From Chloroflexota bacterium (GTDB lineage Bacteria > Chloroflexota > UBA6077 > FW602-bin22 > JAMCVK01), in contig JAMCVK010000035.1 in assembly GCA_023475225.1 (NCBI GenBank), positions 75,212 through 112,147 on the forward strand: a DNA stretch of 36,936 bases, written 5' to 3'. Positions 5,681 to 10,691 of this stretch are shown here, in pieces. Position numbers and translations under genes: made by a program. The notes beneath the pieces are model-generated. The model was not told the DNA's origin and did not search any database. It saw only the letters and a program-made list of their open reading frames with translations. Positions within the stretch are counted from its first letter, which is position 1; the number at the start of each line of letters is the position of its first letter.

Positions 5681-6472
5681 TTAGGAAGATTCTTGCAGAG
5701 AGACATCTCCAACCATAATACGCATCAACTGCTCGTTTACTCTTAACAGCAGAGTACCATCAATAGCTACATCCTCAACATAACCGAACAGCGTCCCTTC
5801 CCCTTGCCTGACCGTAACCCATTTATGGAGCATCATCAGACGGGAGCACCATTCATCATATAGATCCTTCCAGCGTCCCTCCCTGAGAGCCAGATAGCGT
5901 CCTTCTATTTGAAAGAGCAGATCCTGGAGTAAAGCAACTCTTGACACCGGCCGTCCCAGGGCTTGAGCCAGGCTGATGGCCGTCGTGGCAATCTCCGGGT
6001 AGGCTCTCACCTCAAAGTTTACGTTGAGGCCAAGTCCGACGATGACTGCAGCTACCTTATCGTCCTCTAATTCGACCTCAGAGAGGATACCGCCCACCTT
6101 CTTTCCCTGGATCAGAAGGTCATTTGGCCACTTGAGGGAACAGGCAAGGCCGCTGACCATCTCTATGGCTGCGGCGGCACCAGACGAACAGAGCGCCGTG
6201 ACCAGGAACAGCTCGGAGGGTAGAAGGGAGGGACATAGGAGAAGAGAAACCAACAAGCAGGTGCCAGCGGGAGCCAACCAGGGGCGTCCCAACCTTCCCC
6301 GCCCGCTTGTCTGCTCCTCGGCGATGACGACGAGTCCTTCCGGGGTTCCCTTTCTGGCGGCTTGTTTGGCAATATCATTGGTAGAGCCCACCGTTTGGGC
6401 GTAGATGATCTCCCGACCCAGCAGACTGGTGCGCAACCCGGCCCGTATGGCCTCGGCAGTCATCTTTTCCAT
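5681..6472 (-). CDS. birA: Biotin--[acetyl-CoA-carboxylase] ligase
   Basis: This 263-aa ligase makes biotinyl-AMP and attaches biotin to carboxylase carrier domains. The catalytic core is complete: GSTNDIAK, the ATP/biotin loop SGRGRLGRPW, KWPNDLLIQGKKVGGIL with the catalytic lysine, and VGLGLNVN. A small SH3-like C-terminal domain follows (EGTLFGYVEDVAIDGTLLL). The N-terminus is only about 20 residues, with no helix-turn-helix domain, so it is a class I, non-repressor BirA. No RBS is obvious beyond a GATAGG-like stretch before the ATG. It converges on the replication operon and lies downstream of the terminator-like hairpin that followed the ancestral tRNA-Arg gene. Confidence 0.95.
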   Translation of the reverse strand: MEKMTAEAIRAGLRTSLLGREIIYAQTVGSTNDIAKQAARKGTPEGLVVIAEEQTSGRGRLGRPWLAPAGTCLLVSLLLCPSLLPSELFLVTALCSSGAAAAIEMVSGLACSLKWPNDLLIQGKKVGGILSEVELEDDKVAAVIVGLGLNVNFEVRAYPEIATTAISLAQALGRPVSRVALLQDLLFQIEGRYLALREGRWKDLYDEWCSRLMMLHKWVTVRQGEGTLFGYVEDVAIDGTLLLRVNEQLMRIMVGDVSLQESS

Positions 6473-6547: not shown

Positions 6548-6577
6548 AAACATTATGCCCCACCCTACTGGTGGGGC
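6548..6577 (-). terminator. terminator-like hairpin past the tRNA-Arg fragment
   Basis: GCCCCACC (6557-6564) pairs with GGTGGGGC (6570-6577) around a 5-nt loop. On the minus strand the stem is followed by ATAATGTTTTAC, a partial U-tract. It sits about 40 bp beyond the duplicated tRNA 3' end, which suits the original terminator of the tRNA gene before the 2.9-kb insertion. Confidence 0.55.
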
Positions 6578-6615: not shown

Positions 6616-6663
6616 TGGTACCCCTGGGGCGACTCGAACGCCCGACACGCGGTTTAGGAAACC
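6616..6663 (-). repeat. tRNA-Arg 3'-half duplicate, distal attachment site of the element
   Basis: These 48 bp are identical to 9560-9607, the 3' half of the intact tRNA-Arg gene, from the anticodon loop through the T arm to the encoded CCA. Identity stops abruptly at 6664 in the anticodon stem, and no 5' half follows, so this copy cannot make a tRNA. A perfect direct repeat of a tRNA 3' end at the far side of an insert is the classic footprint of tyrosine-recombinase integration into a tRNA gene. Confidence 0.85.
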
Positions 6664-6743
6664 ACCAAAGTGGCATTTGACCTATTCGGGCTCACAAGTA
6701 CCACTTCCGCGGCTTTTGAGCTGCCCTTTGGCAGTCAAGCAAC

Positions 6744-6771
6744 TTGACATTAACAGAAGTCGGCTTCTAAT
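6744..6771 (+). promoter_or_regulatory. promoter of the TPR gene
   Basis: A consensus TTGACA (6744-6749) is followed after 16 bp by TCTAAT (6766-6771), giving a leader of about 50 nt before the ATG at 6831. The promoter lies inside the element, so its cargo gene travels with its own expression signal. Confidence 0.6.
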
Positions 6772-6830
6772 TCAAGAGAAATTCACTGCTGGATACATGT
6801 TGTCGGCAAGGGGATGGAAGCGGTAGAATA

Positions 6831-9332
6831 ATGCCTAGTGAGATGCAGGATCGAGGCCGATCTCACCGGAGAGAAGAGCTTTCGATTGAGGCAAGGAGCA
6901 CGTCGGGATCTAACGTGACAAAGAAGAGCAAGCGAAGAAAGGAAAGGCGTAAGAAGTCAGCAACGGGGCATCCTCGCGTGCCCCCTGTGCGCTCCCGCGA
7001 AGAGATAGACAGGCTGCGGGATCTGTGGAGTCAGGGCAAAGAGGCCCAGGCCCTCGAAGGGGGCAAGAGATTGCTCAAAACCAGCCCCAAAGATCCTCAA
7101 ATCCACGTCGCCCTGGGCGAGTTCTACGCTAAATTCGGCCAACAAACCAAAGCCTTCAAGCATCTGGAGACAGCTGCACAGCTCCTACCCTTGAGCCCTG
7201 AAGTAGCTCTCCTGCAGGCTACCATTTACGAGGAGATGGGATTACACGCCCACGCCTTGCGCGCGGCACGATGCTATCTGTCTTTGAGACCCAGCGGTGA
7301 AGAGGCAGAGCAGGTAAGGCAAGTACTTTGGTTTATCGAGCCCTTAATAGCTAAGTGGGCAACAAGGTTCGATGTCTCTGTCAAGCGAATGAAACAAGGC
7401 AGCCTCCTCATGGAGGAGGGCCGGCTAGCTATCGCCAGCAACGATTTTGCCTACGGGCTTCGCTCTTCCCAAGCAGCCAGCCGCTTATTGCCAAAATGGG
7501 CCGTGCCTCGAAACAACGTTGCCCTGGCCCAGTTCTACTTGGGCAAGACCAAAGAGGCGATCACTACAGAAGAGGAAGTCCTCACCGACCTGGATCCGGA
7601 CAATATCCACGCTCTTGCGAACCTCATACACTTTCACGTGGTGCTAGGCCAGATGGAGCAGGCGCAGGCGTACGGCGATAGGCTGAAAATTCTCACGCCA
7701 GCTTTCTTCGATGACCATTTGAAGATGGCAGAGGCTTTTGCTTCGCTCAAACGAGACCAGGCCGTATACAATGTTTTGAGTGAGGCCAAGCCTACGGATG
7801 CCGGAGCAGAAATCGAAAGGGAGTGGCTCCTGGGGGTTGCGGCGGCGAACCTCAGAAAGATAGGGCAAGCACAGTCTCATTTGGCACGGGCAGACGTGGG
7901 AAGCGATGTGTTTCGCAGCAAAGTGGCAGGCCTCATCCGTCACGGCCTCCCTGGTCCCGGTAGGCGCTACCCCTATTACAGCGCCACCCGGTACCTACCG
8001 CAGCACATTTCCCAACGCGGAATAAGCCAATTAGGTGACCATGAGAAGGGAAGCGAACAAAGCCTGCGCGATCTCGCGAAGAGACACCCGGCGCTTATCG
8101 ACATCGCGGCGGAGTGCCTTTGGCTTCTGGACGACGAAGCGGCGAAGAGCGCTATAAACGATCTCAGGGATATCGGCGACGCGAAGGCCATAGATATTCT
8201 GCGATGCTTCGCTACCGGGCGGGTCGGCAGCGATGAGGCGCGGATGTATGCCGCGCTGGCCCTGTTTACCCTTGAGGCCGACCCATCCGGGGAACCCATA
8301 ACGATAATTAAGGATGGCCGGCCCACCCCTATGCGCCTCCATCGGTTTACTATAATTACGTCGAAAGCGCCGTCTTACACTCCAGAAATCGAGCGGATCC
8401 TTGAGCAGGCGATCATTGCCCAGCGGGAAGGCCACAAAGACAGGGCCGAGCATCTTTACAAGGAGATTCTGGCCAACAACCCGAACGTCAAGGAGGCCTT
8501 GGGCAATCTTGGTGTCTTGTACCTTTCTCAAGGGGATAGGCAGCGGGGCGAGGAATACCTTAGGAAGGCCCTTAAGATCGATCCGCTGTACGTCACTGCC
8601 CGCACCAACTTGGCCTCCATCCGTTTATCGGAGGACAGGATGAAGGAAGCGAAAGATTTGCTCCAACCGTTGTCCGAAGTAACCGAATTCCATGTAGAGG
8701 AGATGATCCGCTACCTCGGTGTAATGGCCCGCCTGGCCTTAGCCGAGGAGCATGTTGATGAGGCTAAGGGATATCTTAAGATTATGCTAGAGCTTGACCC
8801 CGACAATGAATGGGCGCGAAATGCCTTCACAAAGGCAGGGTTAGCCGACAGGTTTCTTCAAGCCAGGAGGCGATATAAGGAAAGGAAACAAAAGCAGCAG
8901 ATCTCTCCCAATGAGCCTCTCCTCTCCCTGTTGTCGAGGTACTCAAAGGATGCCCTCACCGGCATAGCTCGCGAGATATTCCTTAGGGCGATCAGCGGCC
9001 TAAAGAAGGATACTCTGATCTCCACCATCCGTGACCTTCTTCGCGATGCTGACGCCTTGGAAAAGGTTCTTCAAACCCTCAACGACGAAGATCAGGCCGC
9101 ACTAGGCTTCGTGCTCCAGGCTGGAGGTGTAGTGCCTCTGGCAGAGTTTGCCAAGAGGTACGGAGACGACGCTGACGAATCGCCCTACTGGAACTGGCAT
9201 GTTCCCAAAACCAGCCTCGGACGCCTCAAGGTTCGTGGCCTCCTGTTCGAGGGAACGTACAAGGGGCACGTGGTGCTAGTGATGCCGGATGAACTAAGGC
9301 TCGTTTGTCAGACGCTTATGAACTCCGCTTGA
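6831..9332 (+). CDS. TPR-repeat protein, cargo of the tRNA-Arg element
   Basis: This 833-aa protein has no signal peptide. The first 50 residues are very basic (KKSKRRKERRKKS), suggesting nucleic-acid or ribosome contact. TPR motifs follow at roughly 60-150 (QIHVALGEFYAKFGQQTKAF) and 190-300, then a less regular middle part. A second strong TPR block lies around 525-680 (EALGNLGVLYLSQGDRQRG). The C-terminus (about 700-828) looks like a helical domain plus winged-helix segment (LGRLKVRGLLFEGTYKG, VMPDELR) of a type seen in XPB-N-like and SEC-C-associated proteins. No enzyme motif is visible, so a scaffold role is likely. It is the only sizeable gene between the two tRNA repeats. An ATG at 6843 is an alternative start; the RBS (GGAAGCGG) is weak. 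The function is unknown. Confidence 0.85.
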   Translation: MPSEMQDRGRSHRREELSIEARSTSGSNVTKKSKRRKERRKKSATGHPRVPPVRSREEIDRLRDLWSQGKEAQALEGGKRLLKTSPKDPQIHVALGEFYAKFGQQTKAFKHLETAAQLLPLSPEVALLQATIYEEMGLHAHALRAARCYLSLRPSGEEAEQVRQVLWFIEPLIAKWATRFDVSVKRMKQGSLLMEEGRLAIASNDFAYGLRSSQAASRLLPKWAVPRNNVALAQFYLGKTKEAITTEEEVLTDLDPDNIHALANLIHFHVVLGQMEQAQAYGDRLKILTPAFFDDHLKMAEAFASLKRDQAVYNVLSEAKPTDAGAEIEREWLLGVAAANLRKIGQAQSHLARADVGSDVFRSKVAGLIRHGLPGPGRRYPYYSATRYLPQHISQRGISQLGDHEKGSEQSLRDLAKRHPALIDIAAECLWLLDDEAAKSAINDLRDIGDAKAIDILRCFATGRVGSDEARMYAALALFTLEADPSGEPITIIKDGRPTPMRLHRFTIITSKAPSYTPEIERILEQAIIAQREGHKDRAEHLYKEILANNPNVKEALGNLGVLYLSQGDRQRGEEYLRKALKIDPLYVTARTNLASIRLSEDRMKEAKDLLQPLSEVTEFHVEEMIRYLGVMARLALAEEHVDEAKGYLKIMLELDPDNEWARNAFTKAGLADRFLQARRRYKERKQKQQISPNEPLLSLLSRYSKDALTGIAREIFLRAISGLKKDTLISTIRDLLRDADALEKVLQTLNDEDQAALGFVLQAGGVVPLAEFAKRYGDDADESPYWNWHVPKTSLGRLKVRGLLFEGTYKGHVVLVMPDELRLVCQTLMNSA

Positions 9333-9551
9333 TTGTTTTTCAAGGACAGCATAGCCTTCCTCGAAGAGTCAGGTGGTGAACCCCAACAGGACCATCACAT
9401 AATGTTTGATGCTCTGGCTGAATTTAACCTCGGTTTGCTGTACGTTTGGCCTATGTTCGACCTCTTGGAGCAGCGGTTTCGGTCTCCCAAAAAGACCGCC
9501 GCTCCCCGATATCGCACAATATGTAGCATCTTGAAGCGGCCTGACCACTAA
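9333..9551 (+). pseudogene. in-frame extension after the TPR gene stop, probably a detached C-terminus
   Basis: Directly after the TGA at 9330-9332 the same frame stays open for 72 codons to TAA at 9549. The sequence looks protein-like (FKDSIAFLEESGG, MFDALAEFNLGLLYVWPMFD). There is no Shine-Dalgarno sequence, and the first possible start is a TTG directly abutting the stop. Two readings are possible: the TPR protein once ran to about 905 residues and gained a premature TGA, or the frame is open by chance. Selenocysteine read-through is unlikely because no stem-loop is evident just after the TGA. Confidence 0.35.
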
Positions 9552-9559
9552 ATATAGCA

Positions 9560-9607
9560 TGGTACCCCTGGGGCGACTCGAACGCCCGACACGCGGTTTA
9601 GGAAACC
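9560..9607 (-). repeat. tRNA-proximal attachment-site copy
   Basis: This is the second copy of the 48-bp direct repeat, lying within the intact tRNA-Arg gene. It is identical base for base to 6616-6663. The crossover must have occurred somewhere within this identity block. Confidence 0.85.
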
Positions 9608-9636
9608 GCTGCTCTATCCGCCTGAGCTACAGGGGC
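9560..9636 (-). tRNA. tRNA-Arg (CCT)
   Basis: The minus strand folds into a full cloverleaf. The acceptor stem is GCCCCTG with CAGGGGT. The D arm contains AGCTCAGGCGGATAGAGC. The anticodon stem GCGGT/ACCGC surrounds loop TTCCTAA (anticodon CCT, reading AGG), and the T arm is GGGCG-TTCGAGT-CGCCC. The 3' CCA is encoded (9560-9562). Its 3' half doubles as the attachment sequence of the element to its left, which restored the gene on insertion. Confidence 0.95.
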
Positions 9637-9817
9637 ATATAGAATTCTCCTGGTTGCAGAATCAGTACAGGTGAACATATCCTTTTAACCTGTTGTGTTA
9701 TAATTATATTTTAGGATGGGAGGTTCGTCAATCAGAATCGCCATCCCAAGTGTAGCTCACTATTTCTGCTAATCGTCACCTCGCTGGAAGAACTTAAGAG
9801 GCTGAAAGGGATAGCTC

Positions 9818-10235: not shown

Positions 10236-10691
10236 TCACTCAGGAAATTCCGTCTCGATGAGCTCATAGCTTATGTTACCTCGAGAGATCGCTTCTTTAA
10301 GAAGACGTTCCTCTTTCGTTAGCCTTGGCCTTTTTGATGTTTTGACTTCTACAAAAACTACCTTAAGAGGGTGTTCAAGGCTGCCATCTCTTAACGCACT
10401 ATACCCATCAAAAACGACCAGGTCTATAGGGGAACCAATGAAACGAGCATCAGATGGGTTATACTTGAAGATGGGCAGCAGCGGTGCAAACTGTTCGCCA
10501 ACTTTGCCCCTTATAACAGCGCGGCTGTCTTCAACCGCTTGTTGCCGTATCCGGTCCATCCATTCTGCTTGCATAGCCTGGAATCTGGCCTCGTATTCTT
10601 TTTGTAGCGAGGACTTGAGCAAGGAGCTTGTGGCTAGAAATCCTATGACCAAGCCTACAAGAAGGGCAATAATAACCCAAATTATATCCAT
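10236..10691 (-). CDS. membrane-anchored Holliday-junction-resolvase-like nuclease
   Basis: This 151-aa protein begins with a single membrane helix (MDIIWVIIALLVGLVIGFLA) and a short charged coiled coil (residues 27-60). A compact PD-(D/E)XK-like domain follows, with E66 in GKVGEQF, D90 in GSPIDLVVFDG and E115-V-K117 in VVFVEVKTSK. This is the layout of the Endonuc_Holl family (PF10107), annotated as related to archaeal Holliday junction resolvases. The nuclease activity is inferred from the motif pattern; I know of no firmly established role for the anchored bacterial forms. A strong GGGGGAGGA precedes the ATG. Convergent with the 119-aa gene. Confidence 0.82.
   Translation of the reverse strand: MDIIWVIIALLVGLVIGFLATSSLLKSSLQKEYEARFQAMQAEWMDRIRQQAVEDSRAVIRGKVGEQFAPLLPIFKYNPSDARFIGSPIDLVVFDGYSALRDGSLEHPLKVVFVEVKTSKRPRLTKEERLLKEAISRGNISYELIETEFPE

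Follow-up and report, generated by a model that had tools for sequence, protein, structure and literature searches.

A 2.9-kb segment at tRNA-Arg(CCT) of a Chloroflexota bacterium as the probable remnant of an integrated element

Cis-mobilizable elements (CIMEs) are elements that have lost their integration and transfer genes and have kept both attachment sites, their parent having been conjugative or mobilizable (PMC5704250). The cargo-bearing CIMEs of Streptococcus salivarius measure 1.2–13 kb (PMC7563491), and a passage of the same paper cites 215 CIMEs at the tRNA-Lys(CTT) site in 303 Streptococcus agalactiae genomes.

A 2.9-kb segment at tRNA-Arg(CCT) in the genome of a Chloroflexota bacterium (GCA_023475225.1) is built much like the Streptococcus CIMEs, among them the S. 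agalactiae elements at the tRNA-Lys(CTT) 3′ end. It has both attachment repeats and a cargo gene, it carries no recombinase, conjugation or other transfer genes, and its size falls within the range given above. It differs from the Streptococcus elements in that no second element lies in tandem with it, and accretion is not observed. The resemblance is thus one of working state, as the name CIME presupposes a conjugative or mobilizable parent and nothing is left here to tell. A first-pass annotation of the locus had regarded a single-gene island of this kind as unusual, a judgement that is not supported, given the frequency in Streptococcus of attachment-site-flanked remnants that contain cargo only (PMC7563491). 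The element is real but of an ordinary kind, such cargo-only leftovers being common.

Layout of the segment and its flanks

The analysed window, a stretch of 36,936 nucleotides, comprises bases 75212–112147 of contig C35 (JAMCVK010000035.1) in an assembly of 50 contigs that is approximately 97% complete. The features of the segment are listed in Table 1. Its two ends are defined by an exact direct repeat (48 of 48 bp), both copies of which are read on the minus strand. The copy proximal to the tRNA spans the anticodon arm through the encoded CCA of an intact tRNA-Arg(CCT) gene, so the repeat represents the 3′ half of this tRNA, as the first-pass annotation had proposed. Past the end of the tRNA the two copies stay alike for a few bases, apart from a one-base indel, which gives 98% identity over approximately 52 bp. 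Exactly two copies of the repeat occur in the 2.74-Mb genome, even when three mismatches are allowed, and the chance of a 48-bp match within 6 kb is negligible. Identical copies of this length are compatible with a divergence of up to approximately 6% (95% bound); the integration event therefore need not be old, and it may be recent.

Table 1 Features of the segment and its flanks, in window coordinates.
Feature	Position	Strand	Basis
birA-like biotin protein ligase gene, in the flank beyond the island	5681–6472	−	PF03099, E = 1.1e-21
Terminator-like hairpin, between the distal repeat and birA	6557–6577	−	Position; count of such sites in the region at chance level
Attachment repeat, distal copy (orphan tRNA 3′ half)	6616–6663	−	Exact 48-bp repeat
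Left inner end, non-coding, no integrase remnant	6664–6830		Remnant searches
Cargo gene, 833-aa TPR protein, long form	6831–9332	+	ORF, Pfam TPR families, family alignments, structure model (pLDDT 80.7)
C-terminal SAP-like and winged-helix module of the cargo	8880–9329	+	Seven long forms, SAP matches, model pLDDT 85.7, weak fold matches
Right inner end beside the tRNA, non-coding, no remnant; relatives have an integrase gene here	9333–9559		Remnant searches, relatives
Attachment repeat, tRNA-proximal copy (tRNA 3′ half)	9560–9607	−	Exact 48-bp repeat
tRNA-Arg(CCT), intact target gene	9560–9636	−	ARAGORN
tRNA-Arg promoter-like site, TTGACG-17-TATAAT (11/12)	9703–9731	−	Sequence match

Along the reading direction of the tRNA, promoter-like site, tRNA, 2.9-kb insert, orphan 3′ half, hairpin and birA follow one another. 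Insertion of an element into the 3′ end of a tRNA gene, with displacement of the original end and its terminator, would give this arrangement. The hairpin is probably that terminator, a call that rests on its position, such sites being no more frequent in the region than by chance. With the insert removed, the tRNA, hairpin and birA form a coherent arrangement, in keeping with the earlier description, the hairpin lying where a displaced terminator would be expected. A search of 29 genomes of the class by way of birA did not find the gene beside tRNA-Arg in the relatives. On the other side of the tRNA, between it and a cluster of six more tRNA genes, the window contains a gene of the PF10107 family of Holliday-junction-resolvase-related endonucleases (10236–10691), the product of which has an N-terminal hydrophobic stretch.

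The insert has ordinary base composition and holds a single substantial gene, encoding a TPR-rich protein. The gene itself is confirmed, in line with the prior description of one promoter and one large TPR gene; the promoter is weak, consisting of two 9/12 matches at 6800–6832 that reach the start codon, in a region with 3 promoter-like sites against 1.7 expected. The inner ends on either side of the gene, of 167 and 227 bp, were taken as non-coding; a 72-aa frame at 9333–9551 matched no family. No integrase remnant was found in either end by blastp of six-frame translations against the ORFs around the recombinases of the same genome, the only two small blastp matches being the tRNA sequence itself. 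A profile of ten local integrases (hmmsearch --max) detected no remnant across the whole element. Five tyrosine recombinase matches occur in the genome, all on contigs other than C35, and the absence of an integrase from the element, already noticed in the first pass, was thereby confirmed. The two inner ends have no arm-type repeat of at least 8 bases in common (1.0 expected). The segment also lacks the make-up of a phage satellite, having a single TPR gene in place of an integrase with replication or phage-interference genes; comparison with PHROGs gave no more than four matches, all of them weak and of unknown function and located within or close to the TPR region.

Integrase genes at the same tRNA in other Chloroflexota

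Four other genomes have a tyrosine-integrase gene or a remnant of one at tRNA-Arg(CCT), where none is found here: G007 and G009 belong to the same order, G018 to the same class and G248 to the same phylum. When the phylum's 30 best tRNA-Arg(CCT) loci were inspected, 3 had an integrase reading frame within 1.5 kb; G009 was examined separately. The phylum-wide tRNA survey scored only two candidates per genome and therefore cannot count duplicated tRNA halves in general. The integrases end 58–214 bp from the tRNA 3′ end and are oriented towards the tRNA. All four are apparently broken or reduced to remnants: those of G007 and G018 contain a frame change (overlapping frames), that of G009 consists of the C-terminal half only and lies beside a transposase gene, and that of G248 is an 88-residue remnant. 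In relatives with metagenome-derived or fragmented assemblies, part of this damage could be assembly error.

A close counterpart is found in G248, a complete single-contig genome, where a 5.1-kb island (L137 8360–13506) is bounded by a 54-nt repeat of the tRNA-Arg(CCT) 3′ half. The same tRNA, with nearly the same attachment core, therefore bounds a second integrase-poor island, which likewise carries cargo and no working integrase. It differs from the present segment in its greater size, in the lower identity of its repeats (91%), in the integrase remnant that it has kept and in its cargo, which by eye includes a sigma-70-like gene. In the orphan tRNA half of this island, the changes affect both sides of the T stem and keep it paired. 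The same tRNA of G248 has another integrase gene on its 5′ side (L137 13560–14753), which seems intact and is followed by genes resembling a phage or plasmid replication module.

In G010, of the same order, the end of contig C85 and the start of contig C109 (L122 and L123) overlap by 107 identical bases, and C109 begins in the anticodon arm of tRNA-Arg(CCT). This suggests a fork of the assembly graph at the attachment core, possibly reflecting a polymorphic integration site in that population. Taken together, the integrases of the four genomes, the repeat in G248 and the overlap in G010 identify tRNA-Arg(CCT) as a recurrent attachment site in Chloroflexota, of which the segment in the window is the most reduced case.

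A further element occurs in the same genome as the segment, at tRNA-Arg(TCG) (L057 1428–8795, on G000:C25), where 7.2 kb separate two copies of the tRNA, with an 84-nt repeat of 90% identity. It shares with the segment the host, the choice of a tRNA-Arg target and the flanking tRNA repeats, but has a different core sequence and keeps a tyrosine integrase gene and a D5-type primase gene. It also has a perfect 23-nt repeat near both ends, whereas the inner ends of the segment share no 8-mer. In the tRNA copy on its integrase side, the 3′ half and the acceptor stem no longer match.

The cargo protein and its family

The cargo family was found in 11 of 400 genomes of the phylum at E = 1e-25. In a maximum-likelihood tree its members separate, with support of 100/100, into a short form of approximately 660 aa and a long form of approximately 830 aa, the window protein occupying a long branch inside the long-form group. 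The long form has approximately 150 additional C-terminal residues, the mean column identity of which is 53%, against 45% for the whole protein. This C-terminal module is conserved in seven long forms. Its first part is SAP-like, with a SAP domain match in one member (E = 0.0011) and a match to a thyroid autoantigen chain, 1jjr (E = 0.0013), presumably Ku70; a winged helix follows in the confident structure model. Fold matches of the module include MarR- and ArsR-type regulators and chain 2 of TFIIH-containing complexes, none of which reaches E = 0.001. The whole protein retrieved only generic TPR superhelices, with TM-scores of approximately 0.2, and no catalytic domain was found in it by sequence. 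The protein is probably a nucleic-acid-bound TPR scaffold or regulator. SAP-like/winged-helix modules also occur with different partners in other proteins of the phylum (L142–L150); these are 440–570 aa long and by eye show no TPR repeats, and G324 has two of them.

A search of the genome contigs with the single protein gave no matches, and an alignment-based search gave six. There is no second copy of the C-terminal module in the host genome. The other 28 genomes of the class have no long form at the thresholds used, so the gene was probably acquired horizontally, despite the ordinary base composition of the insert. The long-form proteins of Anaerolineae and Thermoflexia (L086–L091) have the same full-length domain layout, including the SAP-like and winged-helix C terminus, but are only 23–31% identical to the window protein over their full length, and their genes are chromosomal, with no tRNA gene in the stretches examined.

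The family is patchy in Chloroflexota and elsewhere chromosomal and, in the stretches examined, away from tRNA genes. The exceptions are a homologue located 4 kb from tRNA-Asn and a short form on the 3′ side of tRNA-Thr (G257, L078); the latter was considered as a second case and rejected, as no tRNA repeat was found there. Phages and viral contigs yielded no matches to the protein, and plasmids yielded two partial TPR matches only.

Origin of the segment

Integration itself is well supported. The segment is best explained, with a probability of roughly three in four, as the remnant of a tyrosine-recombinase element at tRNA-Arg(CCT) that has lost its integrase and kept one cargo gene. Such an element would have integrated into the 3′ half of the tRNA and rebuilt the gene with its own copy of that half, so that the original 3′ half, the terminator and birA came to lie beyond the insert. 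Internal deletion would then have removed the integrase gene and the rest of the mobility genes, leaving both attachment repeats and one cargo gene. The island would now be passive and, as described for cis-mobilizable elements, would exit or spread only if a recombinase with matching specificity arrived. The decaying integrases at the same tRNA in relatives, one of them, in G248, sharing the attachment repeat, argue for this reading, and two suggestions of the first-pass annotation, integration into a tRNA 3′ end and a minimal decayed island with its cargo still intact, gain weight from them. Against the remnant reading stand the ordinary base composition of the insert, the identity of the repeats, by which the event may be recent and leave less time for decay, and the failure to find an empty site or an intact parent element among the genomes examined, which include no other member of the same family.

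Movement in trans, which had been offered in the first pass as the work of a helper, is improbable. The segment would in that case be a non-autonomous element of 2.9 kb, still mobile as a unit, with both repeats recognised by a recombinase acting in trans and the TPR protein as the sole payload. The identity of the repeats over 48 bp, the intact cargo ORF, the lack of debris from other mobility genes and the presence of other tyrosine recombinases in the genome would all suit such a unit. The unit was, however, found nowhere else: the genome has no further copy of the core or of the cargo C-terminal module, the 48-bp core is absent from viral contigs and the protein from phages, the inner ends share no repeat, and homologues of the cargo, the tRNA-Thr and tRNA-Asn cases apart, do not lie near tRNA genes in the stretches examined. 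It is simpler to suppose that the element decayed and retained a cargo gene. A more specific form of the same proposal is less probable still, namely that the single-gene element remains trans-mobile at tRNA-Arg(CCT) as a satellite reduced to one scaffold gene, its TPR/SAP-like/winged-helix protein binding its own ends or the helper machinery, or acting against phages. Proof of movement in trans would make the segment a single-gene satellite of unusually small size.

That the segment is a defence island of which a single anti-phage gene is left, with the TPR protein as effector or sensor, is very unlikely. The combination of TPR and nucleic-acid-binding parts is compatible with such a role, and one homologue (G396) lies beside genes that by eye resemble those of Fic, VapC and AbiEii-type proteins. 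The other homologues, however, are found among metabolic and membrane genes in ordinary chromosomal settings, no catalytic domain was found in the protein by sequence, and PADLOC and NCBIfam gave generic TPR cross-matches only; no known anti-phage system was matched beyond short TPR overlaps, with PDC-M71B and PrimPol. The anti-phage role suggested in the first pass thus found no backing. Equally doubtful is a non-mobile origin, in which a resident gene became enclosed between two copies of the tRNA 3′ half through local duplication or illegitimate recombination: it would accord with the ordinary base composition and the missing integrase, but the copy runs from anticodon arm to CCA, as is typical of attachment cores, the same tRNA half bounds the G248 island with an integrase remnant at the tRNA, and integrase genes abut this tRNA in three more relatives.

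At tRNA-Arg(CCT) of Chloroflexota, integrases are thus found at several stages of decay. The long-form TPR family, with its conserved SAP-like/winged-helix C terminus and no assigned function, offers a modest target for study. Read as a decayed island, the segment illustrates how a member of an ordinary chromosomal gene family can become the last cargo of an island.
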